Virus record (IMG/VR): IMGVR_UViG_3300035182_000301
Location: 1 to 25,925 of that record
Source: a virus
Strand: one strand, 5' to 3'
Length of the DNA: 25,925 bases
In this document: positions 695 to 23,814 of the stretch, piece after piece
Layout: every line of letters starts with the position of its first letter
Position numbering within the stretch: position 1 is the stretch's first letter
Made by a program: the position numbers and the translations under genes
The notes under the pieces: model-generated
What the model was told of the DNA's origin: nothing
Seen by the model: only the letters and a program-made list of their open reading frames with translations
The model's database searches: none

Positions 695-871
695 ATGGAC
701 GATCAAGAAGAACGGGATGATGGCGCACTGGAATGGTGGGAACAGGCTGGAAGACATCAGATTGGAGAATGGGAAAATGGAAACAAAAGAACAAACAAAA
801 CAGGAAGGACTGGCGCTACTTCGCGCGCCGTTCCCTCCGAATCAGATCAGCAGTCTACCGAAGCCAACTAA
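695..871 (+). CDS. Small acidic hypothetical protein overlapping the Rad52-like gene
   Basis: A 58-residue ORF starting at ATG 695, a few bases after GAGGGCGG. It begins MDDQEERDDGALEWWEQAGR, is acidic and tryptophan-rich in its first half, and becomes polar and low in complexity in its second half. Its last 95 bases overlap the start of the Rad52-like gene in another frame, and the quality of the second half drops there. It could be a real leader-like protein whose translation feeds the downstream start, or a chance ORF. No family is recognised. Confidence 0.4.
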   Translation: MDDQEERDDGALEWWEQAGRHQIGEWENGNKRTNKTGRTGATSRAVPSESDQQSTEAN

Positions 872-1487
872 GGCACAGACGGACGAAGTAAAGGCTAATT
901 TCAAGTCGGGTATTCGCTGCGTAATTTGCGGTGGGTGGCACCATCCGAAAGTGGTGCACCTGGACTACGTCGGACACGCGGCGCTTACCGACCGTCTGCT
1001 CGATGCAGACCCGTTCTGGACGTGGGAGCCATTGGCAATTGGAAATGATGGGTTGCCAGTCATTGATAAAGATGGCGGGTTGTGGATACGCCTCACAGTC
1101 TGCGGGGTGACACGGTTAGGATACGGAGACGCCCAAGGGAAGACAGGCGGTGACGCGATGAAGGAGCGCATTGGGGACGCGCTTCGGAACGCCGCAATGC
1201 GGTTTGGGGCCGCACTGGATTTGTGGCACAAGGGCGATTTACATGTCGCTACGGATGACGATGACGGGAATGTAGGCGCAAAGGCACCTACAAATAAGGC
1301 TAATCCTGAAAACGAGCGAGCCGCGCTTGCAAAAAAACTCAACGCAGCATCTCGGCGTGGTTCTGTCTCGCTACGTGACGCATGGGAAGCGCTGACTCCA
1401 GCGCAACGGCACGAAATGGCGGACATAAAAGATGATCTGAAATCCGCCGCTGCCATGCAAGACGAAGCGATCGCAACACAGGCTTGA
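777..1487 (+). CDS. Rad52-like single-strand annealing recombinase
   Basis: The protein has the hallmark blocks of a phage Rad52/22-type annealing family: LLRAPFPPNQISSLPKP (residues 14-30), HLDYVGHAALTDRLLDADP with WTWEPLA (61-87), GGLWIRLTVCGVTRLGYGDA (100-119), and KERIGDALRNAAMRFGAALDLW (129-150). Such proteins anneal complementary single strands during phage recombination and replication. Between blocks 1 and 2 lies CVICGGWHH...H (C48, C51, H55, H56, H61), a likely metal site. The C-terminal third is charged and probably flexible, as expected for partner binding. ATG 777 is chosen over an upstream ATG at 717 because GGAGA sits 8 nt before it; this gives 236 residues. It leads the recombination/replication group with Gp157 and the helicase. 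Confidence 0.8.
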   Translation: METKEQTKQEGLALLRAPFPPNQISSLPKPTKAQTDEVKANFKSGIRCVICGGWHHPKVVHLDYVGHAALTDRLLDADPFWTWEPLAIGNDGLPVIDKDGGLWIRLTVCGVTRLGYGDAQGKTGGDAMKERIGDALRNAAMRFGAALDLWHKGDLHVATDDDDGNVGAKAPTNKANPENERAALAKKLNAASRRGSVSLRDAWEALTPAQRHEMADIKDDLKSAAAMQDEAIATQA

Positions 1488-1503
1488 AAAAGGATATTGC
1501 ATC

Positions 1504-2010
1504 ATGAGTATCACTCTGTACGACATAGCAGACAAATACACGCAGGCATTCTACGCGCTGGCCGATTCTGATATCGACAACGAAACCATTGACGATACGC
1601 TGGAAGGACTCGAAGGAGAACTGGTAGAGAAGGGTAAAGCAGTTACCGCTTTCTGCCTCAACCTGGATGCCGAAATCGAGGCGATTATATCGGCAGAAAA
1701 GCGCATTTCCGCCAGGCGCAAAGCAATGGAGAACAAGCGCGACAGGCTAAAGGAATACCTGAAACAGAACATGGCGAGGTGCGGAATCAGCGAGATAAAG
1801 GCAAACGATGGATCGTTTGTTGCGAGGCTGTATATCGGGCGCGATGAGTCTGTTGTGATTGACGACGAATCGGCGATCCCGATGGATTTCAAGAGAGAAA
1901 TACCGGCCAGTTACGAACCGGAAAAAATGCTCATCAAGAAGGCGATAAATGATGGATTGGTGGTGCCTGGTGCGCATATCGATAAGAAAGACAGGCTGGA
2001 GATAAAGTGA
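1504..2010 (+). CDS. Siphovirus Gp157-like protein
   Basis: A 168-residue protein that matches the Gp157 family in layout. The N-terminus is a helical region (MSITLYDIADKYTQAFYAL). A long acidic and then basic coiled coil follows at about 40-90, with EIEAIISAEKRISARRKAMENKRDRLKEYL. The C-terminus is a compact beta domain with YIGRDESVVIDDES and IPMDFKREIPASYEPEKMLIKKAINDG. Gp157 proteins accompany phage annealing proteins and helicases; an early report linked the family to phage resistance in streptococci, but the biochemical role is not settled. It lies 16 bp after the Rad52-like gene, and its stop overlaps the GTG start of the helicase (GTGA), so the two are probably translationally coupled. 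Confidence 0.8.
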   Translation: MSITLYDIADKYTQAFYALADSDIDNETIDDTLEGLEGELVEKGKAVTAFCLNLDAEIEAIISAEKRISARRKAMENKRDRLKEYLKQNMARCGISEIKANDGSFVARLYIGRDESVVIDDESAIPMDFKREIPASYEPEKMLIKKAINDGLVVPGAHIDKKDRLEIK

Positions 2011-3392
2011 GTAACTATGTCGAGTTTCTGAAAGGCAAGACGTCAATGCACATCCAATCTGGCATTGATGTTGAACCTATACATGACGGCTTGTTCCCTC
2101 ATCAACGTGCGATGGTCAAATGGGCGCTTCGCCGTGGTCGTGCGGCAATCTTTGCAGATACCGGACTAGGCAAGACGCGCATGGAGATCAGTTTTGCCGA
2201 TACGTTGCATAAAACGATTGGGCGCAATGCGCTTATTCTGGCTCCATTGGCTGTTGCTTCCCAGACAGTCGAAGAAGGCGAAGCAATGGGCGTCTCCATT
2301 AACCATTGCCGTGATGATAGTGATGTGCGGGATGGCATTAACATCATCAACTATGACAGATTGCATTTGATCGACCCTGACAGGTTCGGCATCGTCATTC
2401 CTGATGAGTCCAGCATAATCAAGCATCAAACCGGCAAGACTTTTGCAACCATGCTGGAAATGTTCAGAAACACGCCATACAAGCTGCCATGCACAGCCAC
2501 GCCTGCGCCGAATGATTGGACTGAACTTGGAACGCATGCGGAATTTCTTGGGGTGCGATCTGCAACAGAAATGCTTGCGGAGTTCTTTGTCCATGATGGA
2601 GGAGACACATCGGAGTGGAGACTGAAAGGACATGCTCGTAAAGAATTCTGGCGATGGGTTGCATCGTGGGGTGCGCTTGTACGATCTCCATCTGATCTTG
2701 GTTTTGATGCAACTGCTTATAATCTTCCTCCTCTCAATGTCCACCAGCACACTGTAAGCAGCGATAGCAAACTTCTGGATGGTCATCTGTTCGCAACTGA
2801 GGCGCAAACGCTGATGGAGCGCAGAGAAGCCAGACGTAAAAGCCTATCTCAGCGAGTTAAGGCTTGCGCCGAGATCGTAAACGCGAATAGGGCACCGTGG
2901 ATAGTCTGGTGTGATTTGAATGCGGAGGGAGACGCATTACGCGCGGCCATTCCTGATGCTGTGGAAATCCGAGGGTCAGATGATTCTGACGCGAAAGAAA
3001 AGCGTCTGATTGATTTCGCGCATGGCAAGATTCGCGTGCTAATCACCAAGCCAAGCATCGCCGGTTTCGGATTGAACTGGCAGCACTGTTGCAATATGGC
3101 ATTCGTCGGGGTGACGGATTCCTATGAGGCATATTATCAAGCGGTCAGAAGATCATGGCGTTTTGGACAGAAGAATGCTGTAAATGTCCATATCTTCGCA
3201 TCCGAGCAGGAGGGGTCTGTGGTAAAAAACTTGGAGCGCAAGGAGAAGGACGCTCGCGCCATGGCCGACGCGCTTTCATCGGAAACGCTCGAAGCCATCA
3301 AAGAGAATATTCTGGGATTCAAACGCGAGACAAACACTTACAACACATCCGCGCAAATTGCGGTTCCTAATTTTCTGAGGATTGCATCATGA
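2007..3392 (+). CDS. SNF2-like DEAD/DEAH-box helicase
   Basis: A 461-residue superfamily 2 helicase with both RecA-like lobes complete. LFPHQ lies at 29-33, Walker A DTGLGKT at 51-57, the Walker B variant DESS at 133-136 (the form seen in phage SNF2-like helicases), and motif III TATPAPN at 163-169. Motif V is at 351-359 (IAGFGLNWQ) and the arginine-finger motif VI, QAVRRSWRFGQ, at 378-388. It should couple ATP hydrolysis to translocation on or remodelling of DNA in phage replication or recombination. The start is GTG 2007, overlapping the Gp157 stop. The stop overlaps the ATG of the methyltransferase, so the three genes form one translational unit. No inactivating change is visible. Confidence 0.92.
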   Translation: MSNYVEFLKGKTSMHIQSGIDVEPIHDGLFPHQRAMVKWALRRGRAAIFADTGLGKTRMEISFADTLHKTIGRNALILAPLAVASQTVEEGEAMGVSINHCRDDSDVRDGINIINYDRLHLIDPDRFGIVIPDESSIIKHQTGKTFATMLEMFRNTPYKLPCTATPAPNDWTELGTHAEFLGVRSATEMLAEFFVHDGGDTSEWRLKGHARKEFWRWVASWGALVRSPSDLGFDATAYNLPPLNVHQHTVSSDSKLLDGHLFATEAQTLMERREARRKSLSQRVKACAEIVNANRAPWIVWCDLNAEGDALRAAIPDAVEIRGSDDSDAKEKRLIDFAHGKIRVLITKPSIAGFGLNWQHCCNMAFVGVTDSYEAYYQAVRRSWRFGQKNAVNVHIFASEQEGSVVKNLERKEKDARAMADALSSETLEAIKENILGFKRETNTYNTSAQIAVPNFLRIAS

Positions 3393-4324
3393 ATGTCATC
3401 AATCAAACAGTAACAGAAGACTATGCGCTGTATCACGGCGATTCGTGTGAGGTAATGAAAGGCTTGCCGGATTCAAGCGTAGATTATTCAATATTCTCGC
3501 CCCCGTTCGCATCGCTTTACACCTATTCAAATTCTACCCGCGATCTCGGAAATTCAAGATCAGATGAAGAATTCTTCGCGCATTTCGACTTCATCATTCA
3601 GGAACTACGCCGGGTAATGAAGCCAGGTCATAACGTCAGCTTCCACTGCATGCTTATGCCCACCAGCAAGGAGCGCGATGGCTACATCGGCCTGAAAGAC
3701 TTTCGCGGTGATCTGATTCGCGCATTTCAGCGTCACGGCTTTATTTACGCCAGCGAGGTCTGCATCTGGAAAGATCCGGTGACGGCGATGCAGCGCACCA
3801 AAGCGCTAGGTTTACTGCATAAGACTATTAGGGGCAACGCAACCATGAGCCGTCAGGGCATCCCTGATTATCTGGTTACGATGCGAGCCCCGGGCGAAAT
3901 CGTCGATAGGGTGCGACACTACAGAGACGAAGCAGAACTGTCCGAAGTCTGCGAGGAAGAAGGGAAGGATTGCGCCACTCAGAGTTTAAACGTATTGCCG
4001 GTTCAGGAATGGCAGCAACTAGCCAGCCCGGTATGGATGGATATTAACCCCAGCGAAACGCTCCAGTATCGCAGCGCAAGGGACAATGAAGATGAGCGTC
4101 ATATATGTCCGTTGCAACTCCAAGTCATCGAGCGCGGCATAAAACTATGGACGAATCCTGGCGATGTGGTTTTTTCACCATTCGGAGGGATTGGTTCCGA
4201 GCCTGTAACTGCTCTACGCATGAAAAGAAAGGCCATCGCAATTGAATTAAAGGACAGTTACTACAAGCAGATGGTGCTGAATGTGCAGGCGGCGATGAAA
4301 GATACCGGAGACCTGTTCGCATGA
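3389..4324 (+). CDS. DNA methyltransferase of the N4/N6 (SPPF) type
   Basis: A 311-residue DNA amino-methyltransferase in the beta arrangement: the catalytic motif IV SPPF is at 37-40, and the AdoMet-binding motif I (FSPFGGIGSE, variant of DPFxGxG) follows near 262-271 with AIELKDSYY after it. SPPY/F is the usual catalytic tetrad of N4-cytosine enzymes, though N6-adenine activity cannot be excluded. The stretch at about 45-210 probably includes the target-recognition part. No restriction nuclease is adjacent, so it looks like an orphan phage methylase that protects phage DNA or marks replicated DNA. It is coupled to the helicase by an ATGA overlap, and its own stop overlaps the next ATG in the same way. 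Confidence 0.9.
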   Translation: MNVINQTVTEDYALYHGDSCEVMKGLPDSSVDYSIFSPPFASLYTYSNSTRDLGNSRSDEEFFAHFDFIIQELRRVMKPGHNVSFHCMLMPTSKERDGYIGLKDFRGDLIRAFQRHGFIYASEVCIWKDPVTAMQRTKALGLLHKTIRGNATMSRQGIPDYLVTMRAPGEIVDRVRHYRDEAELSEVCEEEGKDCATQSLNVLPVQEWQQLASPVWMDINPSETLQYRSARDNEDERHICPLQLQVIERGIKLWTNPGDVVFSPFGGIGSEPVTALRMKRKAIAIELKDSYYKQMVLNVQAAMKDTGDLFA

Positions 4325-6039: not shown

Positions 6040-7500
6040 TTAAACGTCAGCGTTGCGGATAGCGTTAACCGAGCCGCCAGTAACAGTTACCGGGAACGTG
6101 GTTTCAAAAGGCACAATAGGCGATGCCCCGCCGTTACGGACACGGACGCGCGCAGTAAAATCGGCCACATAGTTAAATGTCCCGCTTGACTCCGAAGTTT
6201 GCGATGTCTGCTTGTCAATATACGGGAACCAAACCGCCGCAGCAGAGTATCCGCCGGTTGGGATCGCGGGTGACAATCCAGATACAGTTGTGCCTGAGAT
6301 TCCGGTATAGGTATGAGGATTATTTGCGATGCGGATATATCCGTTTCCAGTAGCAACATCACCCGCAGGAGCGCCGGATAGCGTTAGCGTGGTGCTAGAG
6401 GCGCTTCCCGTGCCTGTGATGCCAGTGGATATGTTGAACCCGCCTGAGCCATTGTCTTTACCTATGAGGATGTAGTCAGTGGCCAGCAGATTCCCAGCGG
6501 ACACGGCGATAACGTTTGGTGGGACAACCGTTGTTCCGTCATCGCTTATCAGTTGGTAAGCCTGTAAATCCGCGCTATTTAGGCTGTTTACATCTATCCA
6601 CCAACCTTGCGCAGCAAAGAACTTGCCGCCAGATAGTGTACCAAAGGGAGCCGCTTGGACATCATTATATGCTGCATCCAGTTTCCGGTATTGCCACCCA
6701 GCCACACCGTTCAGCGTGGCAGTGCTGTTTTCATGGCAAGCCCATTGCAAAGCATGATACACCTCAGTCAGCCGAAGTGCTCCAGTCCAAGAAATCGTGC
6801 CTTTATATTGCTTGGTAACGCTTCCAAGAGTCTTAGTAACTGTGCCGAAGGTTAGCGTAACAACACCAGATGGTGTTGTAGAGGTGACGGTATTTGCGCC
6901 ACCGGTGTAATTTCCGACGGCCCTGGAAATATTGCCGTCAGCCGACACAGATAATGCCGCAACCTGTTCGGAACCAGCCGAACAGTCCACGTCGAAGTGA
7001 CTGAATGCATAACCCCACTCTCGGGACAGTACGGTAACAATGCCCGAGTTGATTAGAGCGCCTGCGGTTTTAACCTTAAACAACGCCCTAATTGGCCCTG
7101 CAGGCCACCACTTGGTGCCAGAATTATACTTGGCGCCATTCTGCACAACGTAGTGACTGCGGCCCGTCAAACCAGAGCCGATGGTATTGATGCCGGTATA
7201 TAGCTCAGCCCCACTTCCTTGCTCAACGGAACCAAAGTTAAAGCGCTGGCTAGTTAAGGAGTCAATGTTAATGCCATTCAAGAGCGTCAGCGCCGACGGC
7301 CTGAGCGTGTTACGCTTACCAGCAAGCTCCGAAGGCACAGCACCTAAGATAGAGACGTTATCGTCAGCGGTTACATTCGGATTATCGGCGAGGTCTTGCA
7401 ACCACGCATGTAGATCGAGCACCGAATAAACGGACGTTCCTGCTACACTGCGCAAGTCCCCGTTTGTGGCTATACTAAAATCTGTTGCGTTTATAGACAC
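6040..7500 (-). CDS. Large structural/appendage protein
   Basis: A 486-residue protein starting at GTG 7500, with AGGAG 8 nt upstream. The N-terminal part has a short helical domain (VYSVLDLHAWLQDLADNP), then RPSALTLLNGINIDSL, LTSQRFNFGSVEQGSG and ELYTGINTIGSGL. The rest is beta-rich and Gly/Thr/Ser-rich: a Trp-containing module at about 290-330 (GKFFAAQGWWIDVNSLNSAD) and repeated Ig-like strands to the end (FTARVRVRNGGASPIVPFET). This modular, all-beta build is that of phage fibres, spikes or head decorations. No catalytic motif is visible. It is co-transcribed with five other appendage-like genes. Confidence 0.6.
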   Translation of the reverse strand: MSINATDFSIATNGDLRSVAGTSVYSVLDLHAWLQDLADNPNVTADDNVSILGAVPSELAGKRNTLRPSALTLLNGINIDSLTSQRFNFGSVEQGSGAELYTGINTIGSGLTGRSHYVVQNGAKYNSGTKWWPAGPIRALFKVKTAGALINSGIVTVLSREWGYAFSHFDVDCSAGSEQVAALSVSADGNISRAVGNYTGGANTVTSTTPSGVVTLTFGTVTKTLGSVTKQYKGTISWTGALRLTEVYHALQWACHENSTATLNGVAGWQYRKLDAAYNDVQAAPFGTLSGGKFFAAQGWWIDVNSLNSADLQAYQLISDDGTTVVPPNVIAVSAGNLLATDYILIGKDNGSGGFNISTGITGTGSASSTTLTLSGAPAGDVATGNGYIRIANNPHTYTGISGTTVSGLSPAIPTGGYSAAAVWFPYIDKQTSQTSESSGTFNYVADFTARVRVRNGGASPIVPFETTFPVTVTGGSVNAIRNADV

Positions 7501-7511
7501 AGTGTCTTCTC

Positions 7512-7913
7512 CTAATCAAGCTGTTGGTCGATATACAAGCTGGCCGATCCTACGATTGCCATCTGACGTGTTTCATAGGGTTTATAGTAGGGTGCCGTAG
7601 TTCCTTGTCGAACCTTAATCCGTAGATCATTCTTCGGATCGCCGGATTGATACACCCCTAAATTTATGAGCTGCGTCGTGCTTGCTGCTACTCCAAAGAA
7701 TAGTTGCTGCCCCGTGCTGTAAGCCTCAACGGATATTGCTGAACCCACTACCAGATTGGTTAGCGTCAACGCAAAGTTGCCAATAGAGTCTGTAGGAAGA
7801 CGCCCGTTTGAGACAGCCACCCCTCCGCCAACAGTAAATGGCCCCCTGGTGCTTGGAACTGATAGCGCGTTCGCGTAGCTAAAGTTCATCGGGGCGAATA
7901 CAGCGTTAGCCAT
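7512..7913 (-). CDS. Hypothetical beta-rich virion protein
   Basis: A 133-residue protein starting at ATG 7913, which overlaps the preceding stop (TAATG). It is beta-rich and lacks membrane or coiled segments: FTVGGGVAVSNGRLPTDSI, ALTLTNLVVGSAISVEAYST, QLFFGVAASTTQLINLGVY, DLRIKVRQGTTAPYYKPYET. It ends SLYIDQQLD. The pattern suits a small structural subunit or connector of the large appendage proteins on either side, but I recognise no family. The next gene starts 11 bp downstream. Confidence 0.55.
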   Translation of the reverse strand: MANAVFAPMNFSYANALSVPSTRGPFTVGGGVAVSNGRLPTDSIGNFALTLTNLVVGSAISVEAYSTGQQLFFGVAASTTQLINLGVYQSGDPKNDLRIKVRQGTTAPYYKPYETRQMAIVGSASLYIDQQLD

Positions 7914-10108
7914 TATGTAATGCTTGTGTCAGGGTCGATAAACAGCACTTGCTGCACGTTTGCTACTGATGTCCCAATATGCACCTGAGCGATGATCTCG
8001 CATCCAGAAGCCATGTCATGTCCCGCTGGAGTGCTTAGCACGAATTTATACCTGTCAAAATTGATCGTCCCGCCAGATATAAATGTTGCTTTGGTTCCAT
8101 TCCACGTTGACCATCCGGTGTTCGTCGATGGTGTTAATGCTGCGGCAGGGAAAATCTGGCGAGTCGTTAAGTACACGGCCCGTCCACTGGTGTCAGTGTA
8201 ATTCAGCTCCATCCAAAGATTGCTGGTATCAATCCCAGATAGTGTGTCGTTTAGCAGATATTCCAGGGTAATTGTTCTTGCCCCATTAGCGAGCGAATTG
8301 ATCTTCGATATGCGTGGGCTAGAGTGCGGTCTACCTGTTGATGTTTGGCCTGGAATTGTGCTGGAGAGGAATTTAATGCTCCAAGGGGTCACCCCGTCAA
8401 GCAGCGTAGCACTAAGCGTTGGAAAGCCCAGCCCAGAAATCCAGTCGCTCTTGCCGCGTAGGGTGTTTATCTGGAAATCTCTGGTTGCAGCGCTAGAAAA
8501 TATTGATACTGTTCGGTACAGGGTGTTGTTAATACTGTTTGCATACGCTGATGCGATTGGATCAAACGCAAAAGCATTGCCGAGATCAGCATTGATAATC
8601 AAGATGTTGCCATTCCCTATACCGCTGGGGCTTATTACTGATTTAGAGCCAACGAGACAGTTGATAGCTTTAATCCCATTGATGAATAGATCATTGTTTG
8701 TATTATTAGAACAATTTATCAGTCCTGTGTGCGGTGCAGTTGCCCCAGAATTGTCAAATACAAGGTTACGGATCGTTGCTGAGCAGTAAGCGATCCCCAA
8801 GTCGTATATGTAATGTGACGTATTGCTGAACGACATAAAAATATCGTCAAACATAACACCTGTGCCCGCATCTGCCGAGGTAGAAACAGTTAATTGTGCA
8901 TAAATGCCAGTATTGCTTTGGTAGTCGGTGTAAAATCCTACACCTTTCGCGTAACAATTATTTGAAAAAGTCCAGACAAAATATGCATTATTAGTTATAG
9001 CGGAGTTTGTGTTATGGAATTGTAAATTAGGTAGCCCTGTTGAATTTACTTTCCCGATAATTCTTGTGGCTTTGTGGCTAACCAGGGAAAGTGAGTGAGC
9101 TAGGCTATTATCGGGAACCCAATTAACTCTAAACACTGGATCGGGCGCGTCAGCGTTCCAAGCTGGGACATTAGTCCCATCATCAAAAATGATATTGGTC
9201 GGTAGCGCCGCCGTGCTAAAAGTTGTCGGTGGGGCTAAATAGTAATTCGAGTTGTAGCAATACAGAATCTTATTAGAGCGCACATAAACGTTGTCTCCAG
9301 GATACACCGACCCAAGAAACGGTTGCGTCGCTCCAAATAACCCGTAGTTTGCAACAGCAATGGCGCTGGGCCACATGACATAGGTATTGAACAACCATCC
9401 CCATGCGCCGGATGCCCCACCCGCAAACTGTACTACAGTAGGCGCGGTGCCCCACCCTGACGAAGAGATCGCCATATAACTGTTGTTTGCATAGTTCGCG
9501 TTGATACTGCCCTGGCGGGTCATGATATTGACGACTGATCCGCTTGCAGATGCAAATATAACGTTACGCAATTGCGTGAGCGTTGCCGAAACATTCGCAC
9601 CAACCGCACCAGTTGCAGCATTGAGCGCGGTCGCAATATTCGTCGCCTGGGCATTAACGTCTGAGCCTACGTTAAACTGCGTAGACGTGGCGCCGGAAGA
9701 AACCGCAGTGAGTGTTACCCCTGCAATGGTTATGGTATTTCCTGCTGCGGCTACAGCATTTATTGTCAACGAAGCCAGTGCTGGGGTTGCCTTTCCTGTA
9801 GCAAGGCCGTCACCATCTTGAGCAACACCCCAAGCAGGCATTGCTATACTCGGATTGCCATTCGTGCTTGTTAGTGTCGTGCTCGATAAGGTAAACGAGT
9901 TATTGAGGTTATAGGTTCCCGCTCCTCCCAGCCCAGTACCAAGCGACGTGATAAAAGTACCAGCAGGCACACCGACACCAGTTACAGCCGAACCAACACC
10001 GATAATACCTGATGTCACCGCGGACACGGTTAAGGTGTAGTTAGAAACAGAGCCAGTAAATGTCGAGTTTATGGCGTACAGATAATGGTCGAGATACTTG
10101 TTAGCCAT
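7913..10108 (-). CDS. Large fibre- or spike-like virion protein
   Basis: A 731-residue protein, the largest in the window. Residues about 16-80 form a module (FTGSVSNYTLTVSAVTSGII, GVGSAVTGVGVPAGTFITSLG, AGTYNLNNSFTLSSTTLTST) that recurs in phage tail-fibre and structural proteins. Next comes a segment rich in Ala and Thr (about 110-220), then a long stretch of Asn/Ser/Tyr-rich short strands that looks like a right-handed beta-helix, and a C-terminal beta domain. The middle of the gene is visibly richer in A+T than the tail genes upstream. A receptor-binding or head-fibre role is possible. The start overlaps the preceding gene by 8 bp. Confidence 0.65.
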   Translation of the reverse strand: MANKYLDHYLYAINSTFTGSVSNYTLTVSAVTSGIIGVGSAVTGVGVPAGTFITSLGTGLGGAGTYNLNNSFTLSSTTLTSTNGNPSIAMPAWGVAQDGDGLATGKATPALASLTINAVAAAGNTITIAGVTLTAVSSGATSTQFNVGSDVNAQATNIATALNAATGAVGANVSATLTQLRNVIFASASGSVVNIMTRQGSINANYANNSYMAISSSGWGTAPTVVQFAGGASGAWGWLFNTYVMWPSAIAVANYGLFGATQPFLGSVYPGDNVYVRSNKILYCYNSNYYLAPPTTFSTAALPTNIIFDDGTNVPAWNADAPDPVFRVNWVPDNSLAHSLSLVSHKATRIIGKVNSTGLPNLQFHNTNSAITNNAYFVWTFSNNCYAKGVGFYTDYQSNTGIYAQLTVSTSADAGTGVMFDDIFMSFSNTSHYIYDLGIAYCSATIRNLVFDNSGATAPHTGLINCSNNTNNDLFINGIKAINCLVGSKSVISPSGIGNGNILIINADLGNAFAFDPIASAYANSINNTLYRTVSIFSSAATRDFQINTLRGKSDWISGLGFPTLSATLLDGVTPWSIKFLSSTIPGQTSTGRPHSSPRISKINSLANGARTITLEYLLNDTLSGIDTSNLWMELNYTDTSGRAVYLTTRQIFPAAALTPSTNTGWSTWNGTKATFISGGTINFDRYKFVLSTPAGHDMASGCEIIAQVHIGTSVANVQQVLFIDPDTSIT

Positions 10109-20769: not shown

Positions 20770-22617
20770 TCAGCGCAGCGCCGACGTGAGAGACGGATTG
20801 TTCAAGCCAAGCCCCCACATGATCTGATTCGGGCCGGATGGTGGTTTGGCGGCAGCGGTTGCTTGCCAGTTTGTGACAGACTCTGCAACCTTTTTACCGT
20901 CCAGATGCACGTGTGTATGAATCTCATGCTGGCTTTTTTCTGGGCCGGGCGGCAAATAACGTGATGCCGCCATAATATCAGAATCAGTAATCGGAACACC
21001 CGACGCCATCTTTGGCGATCTCGTCATTGACGCCATTGTCGACGCCAGGCCAGTTTTTGGCGCAAGATTATTTGCCGCAACGTTTTCTGCGAAGCTGAGT
21101 GGCTTTTTCTGATCGCCCGTCAGCCATTTATAAGCACCATAAACCGCCGCCCCTGCGGCGGCAAGACCAGCAAGGACAAGCACCACCGGGCCGAGCGCCG
21201 TGGCAACAGCACCAGCGCCTGCGGCAAGCGCAGGGAACGCTATCGAAATAATGCCGAGCGAAGCGACGAAACTTGTAACCGTGCCGACTACTGCCAGCAA
21301 TGCCCCGATCGCAGCAAAGAATCCGACGAATAGTTTTAGCGCGGTTGGATGAGCTTGAGCGGTGTTGACGATGGATTGGATGAACTCAACGATTTTGGGT
21401 AGCACGGTTAAGATCAGGGGGACAAGCTGCAAGCCGACGACTGTTTTCAGCGCATTCATGCGGGCGTGAATCGCCTTTTCTTGCATGGAAGGCGACATCT
21501 TCATGATTTCGCTGTAATTGTTGATACCCTTGGTGTCTTCAATCAACTTGCGGTCGCGCTGGAATTTCCAGTATTGCTCGGCCATCTGCACGCCCATAAA
21601 GCCGGCGGTTCGATTCTGGAAAAGATAGCTGATCGCCTGAACCTGCGATTGTCGGTCGGTGATCCCTGCCTTTTGCAGCGCTGGCATTAGGTAGGACTGT
21701 ACCCAATCGACCGGGTTTGACATGAAATCACGCCATCCTTTGATTCCGCCAGGCTCGACACCGCGCATCATATGGCTCTTCGTCCAGACAACCTTGCTTG
21801 GGTCAACGAGTCCGAGTTTTTGGAACATGCCGAGCGATTTCTGCGCCACGGTGCCCTGCACAATAGCCGCATACATGGACATCAGCGGATTCCCTGGGCC
21901 GCCTGTAGCGCCGCCCGATCCACCGCGAGACTTCATTTCCTGAATCAGAGTCGGAAGATAAAACTCGATGAATTCTTTGCTCCACCCCTGCGCCGCCGTG
22001 CGTCCATATTTGACGGCAGAGAGATAATCCGCGGCCTGTACCTTTCCACCGGATGCGATGATGCCTTTAGTGATCGCGTCGGCATAGCTGTTGAACATTT
22101 CCGGCGTCTTGGTTGCACCGATCATTTCCAGCGTTTTCGCAATCTCATAGGACTGATCGCCTTTCAGCCCGGCGTTGTTCAACACGCCTTCCATCCTGAG
22201 CACGGTTGGCAAGTTTTTAATGGCGTCTGCGGTGTCTCCAAACACCATGCGCAGGTGCATAATTGTGTCCAGCGCCTCGGTCGGGCTGGACGTGGGCACA
22301 GACCGGCCCACCGCCCACGCGGCCTTTTCGGCTGAACGCATGTCAGAAGGCGTCAATCCCATCTGCTTCATGCGTGCGATGCGCTGCTGATACTGCATTG
22401 CGGCATCAATGGACGGCTTTAGGGACGCCAGGATGCCGACACCGGCAGTGGCTGCGCCAAGGCCAATGCCGCCTAGCGCCTTGAATCGCGCCATCTTCGC
22501 CTGTAAGGTATCCACCTCACGCGAAACGGTGCGAAAATGCCCGGACATTGCCAACAGCCCGGCTGTTACACCGTCCAGCAAGGACAGTTTTATGCCGATC
22601 TTGTATGCCTCGAACAT
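20770..22617 (-). CDS. Tail tape measure protein
   Basis: A 615-residue tape measure that sets tail length. The N-terminus (MFEAYKIGIKLSLLDGVTAG) is followed by helical, polar sequence with RIARMKQMGLTPSDMRSAEK. Hydrophobic segments at about 400-530 include LKLFVGFFAAIGALLAVVGT, GIISIAFPALAAGAGAVATA and VVLVLAGLAAAGAAVYGAYK. I start it at ATG 22617, with AGGA 6 nt before it, and not at 22650, because the extra 11 residues have no ribosome binding site. At the usual ratio of about 0.15 nm per residue the tail would be roughly 90 nm; that is an estimate. The facing + strand gene starts 11 bases from it. Confidence 0.88.
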   Translation of the reverse strand: MFEAYKIGIKLSLLDGVTAGLLAMSGHFRTVSREVDTLQAKMARFKALGGIGLGAATAGVGILASLKPSIDAAMQYQQRIARMKQMGLTPSDMRSAEKAAWAVGRSVPTSSPTEALDTIMHLRMVFGDTADAIKNLPTVLRMEGVLNNAGLKGDQSYEIAKTLEMIGATKTPEMFNSYADAITKGIIASGGKVQAADYLSAVKYGRTAAQGWSKEFIEFYLPTLIQEMKSRGGSGGATGGPGNPLMSMYAAIVQGTVAQKSLGMFQKLGLVDPSKVVWTKSHMMRGVEPGGIKGWRDFMSNPVDWVQSYLMPALQKAGITDRQSQVQAISYLFQNRTAGFMGVQMAEQYWKFQRDRKLIEDTKGINNYSEIMKMSPSMQEKAIHARMNALKTVVGLQLVPLILTVLPKIVEFIQSIVNTAQAHPTALKLFVGFFAAIGALLAVVGTVTSFVASLGIISIAFPALAAGAGAVATALGPVVLVLAGLAAAGAAVYGAYKWLTGDQKKPLSFAENVAANNLAPKTGLASTMASMTRSPKMASGVPITDSDIMAASRYLPPGPEKSQHEIHTHVHLDGKKVAESVTNWQATAAAKPPSGPNQIMWGLGLNNPSLTSALR

Positions 22618-22627
22618 GGAGATTCCT

Positions 22628-22870
22628 ATGAAAAATTGGCCGTTCCCCACGCAGGGGAATCAGCGTCCGTGGTGGCTGACGCCATTGGGTTTGTTTGCAA
22701 CGACTGCTGCCATCATCCTGGTGCCGATCATCCTGCTGCTGCTGGCGCTGACCGGGTTATTCGTTTGGGCGATGTGGAACAGCGGAGGCGTGGGAATGTT
22801 TATTGCCGCTTTCGTCGTGGTCGGACTGGTGTTCATTCTTGCGGCAATCTGGGCAGCGATGCGGTCTTGA
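22628..22870 (+). CDS. Two-helix membrane protein, antisense in the tail operon
   Basis: An 80-residue protein on the + strand, while everything around it is on the - strand. ATG 22628 is preceded by GGAGA at a 5-6 nt spacing. It begins MKNWPFPTQGNQRPWW, then a long hydrophobic stretch (about 19-48, LGLFATTAAIILVPIILLLL), and a second one (about 55-77, VGMFIAAFVVVGLVFILAAI). Codon use is of a real gene (CTG, GCG, ATC), and the - strand here holds only short broken frames. Its end overlaps the end of the gp10-like gene by 38 bp. Form resembles a holin or a moron-type membrane protein, but no family is recognised and the function is unknown. Confidence 0.6.
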   Translation: MKNWPFPTQGNQRPWWLTPLGLFATTAAIILVPIILLLLALTGLFVWAMWNSGGVGMFIAAFVVVGLVFILAAIWAAMRS

Positions 22871-23309
22871 TCGCGCCGCCCAGGAAGGCGATTTGCACGC
22901 TCTCGCCCACTAGCTTGAGCACGTCCTGCGTCTTGCGCGATGCCGCCAGTCCAAGCACAGAACGCGGCGGGATCGTGCGCGTACCCAACTCCTGATAAAC
23001 CATCACGTCACTATCTGATCCCACCACGGCCTCAAGGCCGTGGACTTCGCGCGAGATGGAATTGCGCAAGTCTCCCGTTCGCAGTAGCGGATCATTCGGG
23101 GTGAACCCTAGTCGCACGCGCTCTTGCTTGGTGGCGTCCTTGAGTTCCGCCCATGGCTGAAACGGCCCCATGTCAGATCGCTGATACGTTCCGATCTCGG
23201 CTTTGGCCTCGCGCTCAATAGCAGCCGCCGCGGCATCAAGGGCGATGGATGCCACCGCAGGGATCGCCCGCGTTTCCAACATACGGGCAAACTGCTTGAG
23301 TTCCATCAT
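22833..23309 (-). CDS. HK97 gp10-like tail completion/joining protein
   Basis: A 158-residue protein with the gp10-like arrangement: a first helix (MMELKQFARMLETRAIPAVA), then DAAAAAIEREAKAEIGTYQR, GPFQPWAELKDATKQERVRL with PNDPLLRTGDLRNSISREVH (the P-L-x-R-T-G-x-L-R-x-S-I signature), then DVMVYQELGTRTIPPRSVLG (a Y-x-E-x-G-T-R-x-x-P-x-R-x pattern) and a final helix. I start it at ATG 23309, overlapping the stop of the frameshift product, since the longer frame to 23378 is part of that product's region. Such proteins complete or join the tail and head. Its place before the tape measure is unusual. Confidence 0.8.
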   Translation of the reverse strand: MMELKQFARMLETRAIPAVASIALDAAAAAIEREAKAEIGTYQRSDMGPFQPWAELKDATKQERVRLGFTPNDPLLRTGDLRNSISREVHGLEAVVGSDSDVMVYQELGTRTIPPRSVLGLAASRKTQDVLKLVGESVQIAFLGGAIKTASLPRLPQE

Positions 23310-23814
23310 GGCTTGTCCTCGAAGCGCATCGTCTGGGTGTTGAACTTGTGTCCCTGAAACTCGCTGAAAATAACGCACATTGCAGCTCGTTCCACGTCAT
23401 CGAGATTCATCGCAACATCCCACGGTACGCCGTTGTTCACCAGCCAGAGCGCTTCCTTGATGGCCGTGAAGCCTAGGGCTTTTTTATAGCCTCTCCGGCG
23501 TCCTCTTGCCTGACAAAGTTCTGCTGGATACCTTTCGCAAGCGCTTCCAAACCTTCTTCGTCCAACTTCTGAATGGCTGCGTCCAATTCGCGCTGATTGG
23601 AGAAGTTCACCACCTCGCCATCAATGGACTGGAGATACAGCAGCGGCATGACCATTGAGAGATAAGTTTGATTGCTCGAAGCGTCCGCCCCAAGCATGCG
23701 AACGAGCTGGTACTGCGCCAGCACGTTAGGTTTCCGCAGCGTCAGCACGCGCCCACGCGCATCCGTCACTTGCGCGTCAGCACTCTTTGCCTGCACATCA
23801 ACGACTTTAGCCAT
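23306..23814 (-). CDS. Tail chaperone -1 frameshift product (GT-like)
   Basis: Ribosomes that slip back one base at A AAA AAG (23485-23479) read past the zero-frame stop. The product then has 112 residues from the short gene plus 57 new ones: ALGFTAIKEALWLVNNGVPW, then DVAMNLDDVERAAMCVIFSE and FQGHKFNTQTMRFEDKP, ending at TGA 23308-23306. The extension has a clear protein signature (VPWDVA...LDDVERAA), matching the second domain of phage tail chaperones, yet it has no start of its own. It should bind the tape measure and tube during tail assembly. The stop overlaps the gp10-like ATG, as expected for a functional unit. Confidence 0.85.
23473..23814 (-). CDS. Tail assembly chaperone, short form (G-like, Mu gp41-like)
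   Basis: A 113-residue protein in the position of Mu gp41, between tube and tape measure. The N-terminus (MAKVVDVQAKSADAQVTDAR) is beta-rich, followed by LTLRKPNVLAQYQLVRMLGA and a helical part with YLSMVMPLLYLQSIDGEVVN. The chain ends AGEAIKKP. It should coat the tape measure before the tube polymerises and be lost from the finished tail. ATG 23814 overlaps the tube stop (TAATG). The slippery heptamer lies five codons from the end. Confidence 0.85.
   Translation of the reverse strand: MAKVVDVQAKSADAQVTDARGRVLTLRKPNVLAQYQLVRMLGADASSNQTYLSMVMPLLYLQSIDGEVVNFSNQRELDAAIQKLDEEGLEALAKGIQQNFVRQEDAGEAIKKP
23479..23485 (-). promoter_or_regulatory. Programmed -1 frameshift site A AAA AAG
   Basis: On the - strand the codons are ATA AAA AAG CCC TAG, so the heptamer A AAA AAG is in the X XXY YYZ register. 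A AAA AAG is a very slippery sequence in bacteria. The stop TAG comes one codon after it. In the shifted frame reading continues for 57 codons. A small possible stem (AAGCC/GGCTT, loop CTA) overlaps its 3' edge; I see no strong pseudoknot by eye. Confidence 0.85.

Follow-up and report, generated by a model that had tools for sequence, protein, structure and literature searches.

Between the genes for the tail tape-measure protein (TMP) and a gp10-like tail completion protein, many phages hold a fixed slot for a small membrane-protein gene, which lies on the strand opposite to the tail operon. This conclusion is well supported and comes from a comparison of the junction across phages, starting from the 25,925-nucleotide IMG/VR virus record IMGVR_UViG_3300035182_000301 (the whole stretch is called the window), where an 80-residue membrane protein is encoded in the slot at positions 22628–22870. 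It is near-certain that the window gene is real. The findings point to an uncatalogued membrane-protein family kept backwards at one site of the tail operon in numerous Burkholderiales phages and in phages of neighbouring groups. Judged by its place, the product would best fit superinfection exclusion, whereby a small inner-membrane protein made from the prophage would block the DNA injection of related phages. A probability of about 0.45 is given to this reading.

A conserved membrane protein encoded against the tail operon

The gene and its homologues in viral contigs define a group called type A:

22628–22870, + strand: 80-residue membrane-protein gene, type A, delineated by its open reading frame and translation, homologues in L001–L006 and L013, the substitution ratio against L006 and a helix hairpin modelled by AlphaFold2.

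The reading frame starts with the ATG at 22628, stops at 22868–22870 and encodes MKNWPFPTQG...IWAAMRS. AlphaFold2 models of six homologues contain two long helices (residues 19–52 and 54–79, mean pLDDT of 79), both predicted to be transmembrane. The stretch 4–17 nucleotides upstream of the start contains GGAGA and has a pairing energy to the anti-Shine-Dalgarno sequence of −6.4 kcal/mol. The description in an earlier note, a two-helix protein of 80 residues with a ribosome-binding site, is thus upheld.

Homologues occupy the same place in six viral contigs (L001–L006, 85–100% identity) and, at 48–50% identity, in contig L013. The frame is intact in every relative, which agrees with the same note's claim of a real gene. 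Between the window and L006, 22 synonymous and 17 non-synonymous changes were counted, giving synonymous (dS) and non-synonymous (dN) rates of 0.48 and 0.10 and a ratio of 0.21; dN/dS of the homologues is about 0.2–0.3. The window gene is under purifying selection as a protein.

The possibility of a chance open reading frame, or of a shadow of another frame, was considered since a frame is open on the other strand:

22660–22836, − strand: 58-residue ATG open frame, judged a shadow of the + strand gene from its weaker conservation and the wrong codon-position pattern.

The two frames share their third codon positions. Between the window and L013, the frame of the + strand gene scores 183 over 74 residues and the opposite frame 82 over 49 residues, and the differences at + strand codon positions 1, 2 and 3 amount to 26, 17 and 47. 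The 58-residue frame was treated as the shadow because it is less conserved and because this pattern favours the + strand frame. The earlier note was right that the + strand gene is not a shadow, but not that the other strand holds only broken frames. That the gene itself is spurious is very improbable in view of the dN/dS ratio, the codon-position pattern, the homologue at about 50% identity, and the motif conservation, synteny and Shine-Dalgarno selection presented below.

A fixed slot between the tape-measure and gp10-like genes

Junctions were collected through gp10-like homologues from viral contigs and bacterial genomes, and 100 distinct gp10-like proteins were placed on a tree. An opposite-strand small membrane gene is present at 74 of the 100 loci, either of type A (6) or of a second kind called type B (68). 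The remainder consists of 18 simple junctions, 7 junctions with other cargo and one undecided case. This answers the question raised in the earlier note of whether related phages carry the gene or a simple junction. The term moron-like insertion used there is apt for an extra gene between conserved phage genes that is absent in some relatives, but understates a slot that is fixed in most of a large and diverse phage group. On the gp10-like tree, which is a quick tree with several long branches, type A forms one supported clade that groups with three type B rows at 85% branch support, and the distribution of type B requires 12 changes.

Type B proteins have about 70–100 residues and consist of an N-terminal motif close to R..EWLADR.SWVQYP..R, followed by a variable linker and a single long transmembrane helix at the C-terminal end. 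The mean net charge is +5.3 before the helix and +0.3 after it, and the N-terminus is probably cytoplasmic. The pooled ratio of non-synonymous to synonymous changes is 0.24; motif residues are fixed while their codons vary, and the 46 type B representatives with QYP, for instance, encode these residues by mixed codons.

A scan with the motif alone, using a tighter alignment as query and without recourse to gp10, retrieved 60 loci. In all 58 that could be assessed, a gp10-like gene was antiparallel and tail-to-tail with the type B gene. Among 398 Burkholderiaceae genomes, 13 had type B matches, and 13 of the 14 matching places (in 12 genomes) were the gp10-like/TMP junction, in antiparallel orientation. 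The fourteenth encodes a multi-helix protein and was judged a false positive. Eight host genomes taken singly had one type B copy each. It is well supported that type B is tied to the junction, as it was found nowhere else.

Some copies deviate. The type B gene is split over two frames in L048 (4636–4861, Candidatus Glomeribacter strain BEG1) and in L239, probably as decaying copies. In L151 (2133–2531), the frame with the motif extends well into the gp10-like gene of the opposite strand, which marks an altered or decaying copy. L232 and L241, about 50 kb apart in the same genome, have the same match score and the same junction, which suggests two near-identical prophages.

Types A and B share the slot, the strand, the size and the membrane nature. 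The window protein did not match the type B profile (hhalign probability of 11.6%) and lacks the EW-A-DR...QYP motif. As homology between the two types is unproven, the conclusions drawn from type B reach the window gene by position only. Foldseek found no match to the models of either type among viral structures, tblastn none to either type in isolated phages or to type B in plasmids, type B gave nothing above chance in solved structures, and nothing was found in the literature on this gene or arrangement.

The constancy of the TMP and gp10-like neighbours, the membrane nature of the product and its long retention would also suit a factor of the lytic phase, either an antiholin or other lysis timer, or a membrane partner for the phage's own tail assembly or injection. 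Such a role is quite unlikely: 18 of the 100 distinct loci lack the gene and have an intact, close junction, and late transcription would interfere with a gene antiparallel to the tail operon. No holin family was matched above cut-off, the L013 homologue giving only Phage_holin_3_6 with an E-value of 0.32, and the gene sits in the tail module instead of beside lysis genes.

Overlapping start codons and ribosome-binding sites

The slot is bounded in the window by two tail genes, with a short spacer between the divergent start codons:

20770–22617, − strand: TMP gene, head-to-head with the membrane-protein gene (PHROG phrog_28, tail length tape measure, E-value of 1.4e-20; ATG at 22617 by comparison with relatives).
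22615–22618, both strands: CATG, in which the TMP start codon (22617–22615, − strand) overlaps an upstream in-frame ATG of the membrane-protein gene (22616), identified from the sequence and from the CATG class in relatives.
22618–22627, both strands: 10-bp spacer GGAGATTCCT lying between the start codons of the two genes, identified from the sequence and from anti-Shine-Dalgarno pairing.
22833–23378, − strand: gene for a gp10-like tail completion protein, tail-to-tail with the membrane-protein gene (PHROG phrog_26, tail completion or Neck1, E-value of 2.5e-13; matches to Pfam Phage_tail_S and HK97-gp10_like did not reach the cut-off).

The end of the gp10-like gene at 22833 yields an overlap of 38 bp with the membrane-protein gene (22833–22870), exactly as noted earlier. 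On the other side, the listed TMP frame opens with a GTG at 22650 and begins MGNGQFFIGISMFEAYK.., whereas the relatives begin MFEAYK, which places the start at the ATG at 22617. Ten bases therefore separate the start codons, in the head-to-head arrangement described in the earlier note. The spacer provides the membrane-protein gene with GGAG and, when read in the opposite direction, the TMP gene with AGGA (pairing energy of −4.2 kcal/mol). The upstream ATG at 22616, which would give MEIPMKNW.., is out of frame in L006 owing to a one-base indel, so 22628 is the supported start. The CATG of the window is possibly a relic of the arrangement found in type B loci.

In 32 of 46 distinct type B loci, the membrane gene and TMP have overlapping ATG start codons in the form CATG; in a minority, the membrane gene begins tens to hundreds of bases from TMP. 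In the CATG loci, the E-A-Y codons of TMP yield (A/G)TAGGC on the other strand, before the membrane-gene start, provided that alanine is encoded by GCC. This codon is used in 27 of 34 CATG loci, whereas the alanine usage of each individual TMP would predict 11.1 (P = 1.4e-8). Its use is as expected where the membrane gene starts elsewhere (5 of 17, 5.2 expected) or at loci that lack type B (7 of 21, 6.4 expected), and the codons adjoining GCC vary more freely. When synonymous codons were shuffled, the Shine-Dalgarno sequence of the membrane gene inside TMP exceeded the expected strength at CATG loci (Wilcoxon P = 5e-8) but not at the others (P = 0.83), and that of TMP inside the membrane gene was likewise stronger than expected (P = 0.002); the GCC and shuffle P values treat loci as independent and are not fully free of shared ancestry. 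A tree-based test of independent pairs, relating CATG to GCC, went in the same direction with too few pairs. As the GCC bias is confined to CATG loci, translation of the opposite strand looks selected in type B. A selected overlap of start codons and ribosome-binding sites is well supported in type B, and so is its modified form in the window, where the 10-bp spacer carries both Shine-Dalgarno sequences.

This overlap could also mean that regulation is the main product, opposite-strand transcription or translation silencing TMP in the lysogen and the peptide being of little importance. That is improbable, given that the protein is under purifying selection, with motif residues fixed through codon changes, and that the minority of type B genes starting far from TMP do without the overlap.

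Other cargo at the junction

Cargo genes at the junction were named by eye and not by profile search. A second opposite-strand gene, lipoprotein-like or secreted-protein-like, stands beside the small membrane gene in L013 (4766–5227), L046, L053, L055 (5995–6339) and L153; in L055 it is this second gene that holds the CATG start position. A lipoprotein-like gene is alone at the junction in L070. A pair of opposite-strand genes, one like a RelE-type toxin and the other like a HigA-type antitoxin, is found in L045 (5481–6093) and L126, both from Candidatus Glomeribacter gigasporarum, and L066 (2997–3494) has an opposite-strand gene with a T5orf172/GIY-YIG-like start (MSAGFVYVMTNPCLSIIKVGCSTK). 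L050, L056, L058 and L069 carry membrane or secreted genes on the sense strand. This variety makes the junction a cargo site dominated by the small membrane gene.

Elsewhere in the window, genes for a single-strand annealing protein, a Mu Gam-like end protection protein, a helicase and a methyltransferase lie in a row on the + strand (717–4324), opposite to the tail module. Two large − strand genes encode 486 residues (6040–7500, no PHROG or Pfam match) and 731 residues (7913–10108, matching only PHROGs of unknown function).

Possible function

The results support the window gene as a membrane-protein gene of the moron type that is probably expressed independently; no terminator was found after its stop codon. 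Among the roles floated in the earlier note, exclusion fits the place best, and neither toxin nor antiholin found support. The membrane gene would act while the phage is a prophage with a silent tail operon, and its product in the inner membrane would stop the DNA entry of incoming related phages. The target may be the TMP, which helps to form the injection channel. As the start regions overlap, the two messages are complementary over both ribosome-binding sites, so that the membrane gene would tend to be switched off when the tail genes are strongly transcribed at the late stage, and conversely. Expression in the lysogen, the TMP target and the mutual shut-off are inferred from the arrangement.

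The closest precedent in position is gp15 of HK97, a 62-residue moron product whose gene directly precedes that of TMP. It is reported to block injection, and hybrid phages with other tail-tube and TMP genes are reported to escape (PMC10883804). Likewise, phages escaped Ltp of TP-J34 through changes in TMP (PMC10883804, PMC3952083). SNIPE, which sits in the inner membrane and encounters phage DNA as it is injected, associates with TMP (PMC13190303); it is a membrane nuclease, and its location and association resemble the mode proposed here, but types A and B lack its domains. Like the window gene, gp15 encodes a small predicted inner-membrane protein next to TMP, although its gene has its own putative terminator and its hydrophobic segment is N-terminal, unlike types A and B.

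SieA of P22, Ltp of TP-J34 and Sie2009 of Tuc2009 are membrane or membrane-attached proteins made from a prophage, and they block DNA entry as is proposed for the junction protein. SieA (162–164 residues, three transmembrane domains) and the lipoprotein Ltp differ from the junction protein, and no database match links them. To our knowledge, none of the three overlaps a TMP start. Reverse morons of lambdoid phages, such as gp23 of HK97, are also extra opposite-strand genes inside the tail operon, but gp23 lies between I and J instead of at TMP and was seen in one phage record, whereas the junction slot is filled across many divergent phages.

The type B relatives are prophages or integrase carriers: the loci are in long bacterial contigs, and a tyrosine integrase was matched in 7 of 10 relatives tested. 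Envelope cargo in the slot of some relatives (L013, L046, L055 and L070) was also counted in favour of exclusion.

Several results weigh against exclusion. The gene of gp15 is on the sense strand, and its product shows no detectable sequence similarity to either type (hhalign probability of about 1% each). Loci with and without the opposite-strand gene scored alike for an upstream promoter, and none was found in the window. Co-divergence in a mirror-tree analysis was not specific to TMP (r = 0.35 with TMP, 0.38 with gp10). The nearest relative of the window phage, of 41 kb, gave no match to a tyrosine or serine integrase or to an rve transposase, the Mu-transposase search being uninformative as its control was unmatched; in the window, 438–680 has only a weak excisionase-like match. 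No family matched type A or B proteins above chance in Pfam, PHROGs or NCBIfam, in line with the earlier note, which recognised none. Type B gave only marginal matches in PADLOC, none of them above chance. The shared ancestry behind the P values given above counts on the same side, and so does the cargo resembling a toxin-antitoxin pair (L045) or a nuclease (L066), given which position alone is no proof of exclusion.

This same cargo, together with the secreted-protein and lipoprotein genes at the junction, would accommodate an envelope protein expressed from the prophage for another job, either a change of the host surface or membrane that improves fitness, or a membrane toxin or abortive-infection effector. 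Small hydrophobic proteins are often toxic on overproduction. This alternative is nevertheless unlikely: host-fitness morons usually move between sites, whereas type B was found at no other site, and most loci lack an antitoxin partner or regulator, PADLOC again yielding marginal matches.

If exclusion is the function, a further and tentative step, more doubtful than exclusion itself, would be a self-timing switch of two genes. With overlapping starts, and each gene carrying the ribosome-binding site of the other, the arrangement itself would keep tail production and the exclusion of rivals from occurring together, and inheritance would couple the exclusion gene to the TMP gene that it must match. 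Should an exclusion gene indeed be tied to the TMP gene, these phages would offer an unusual case of two head-to-head genes with start codons and ribosome-binding sites that overlap under selection, and a large natural set for understanding how a resident phage recognises the injection machinery of its relatives and stops it.
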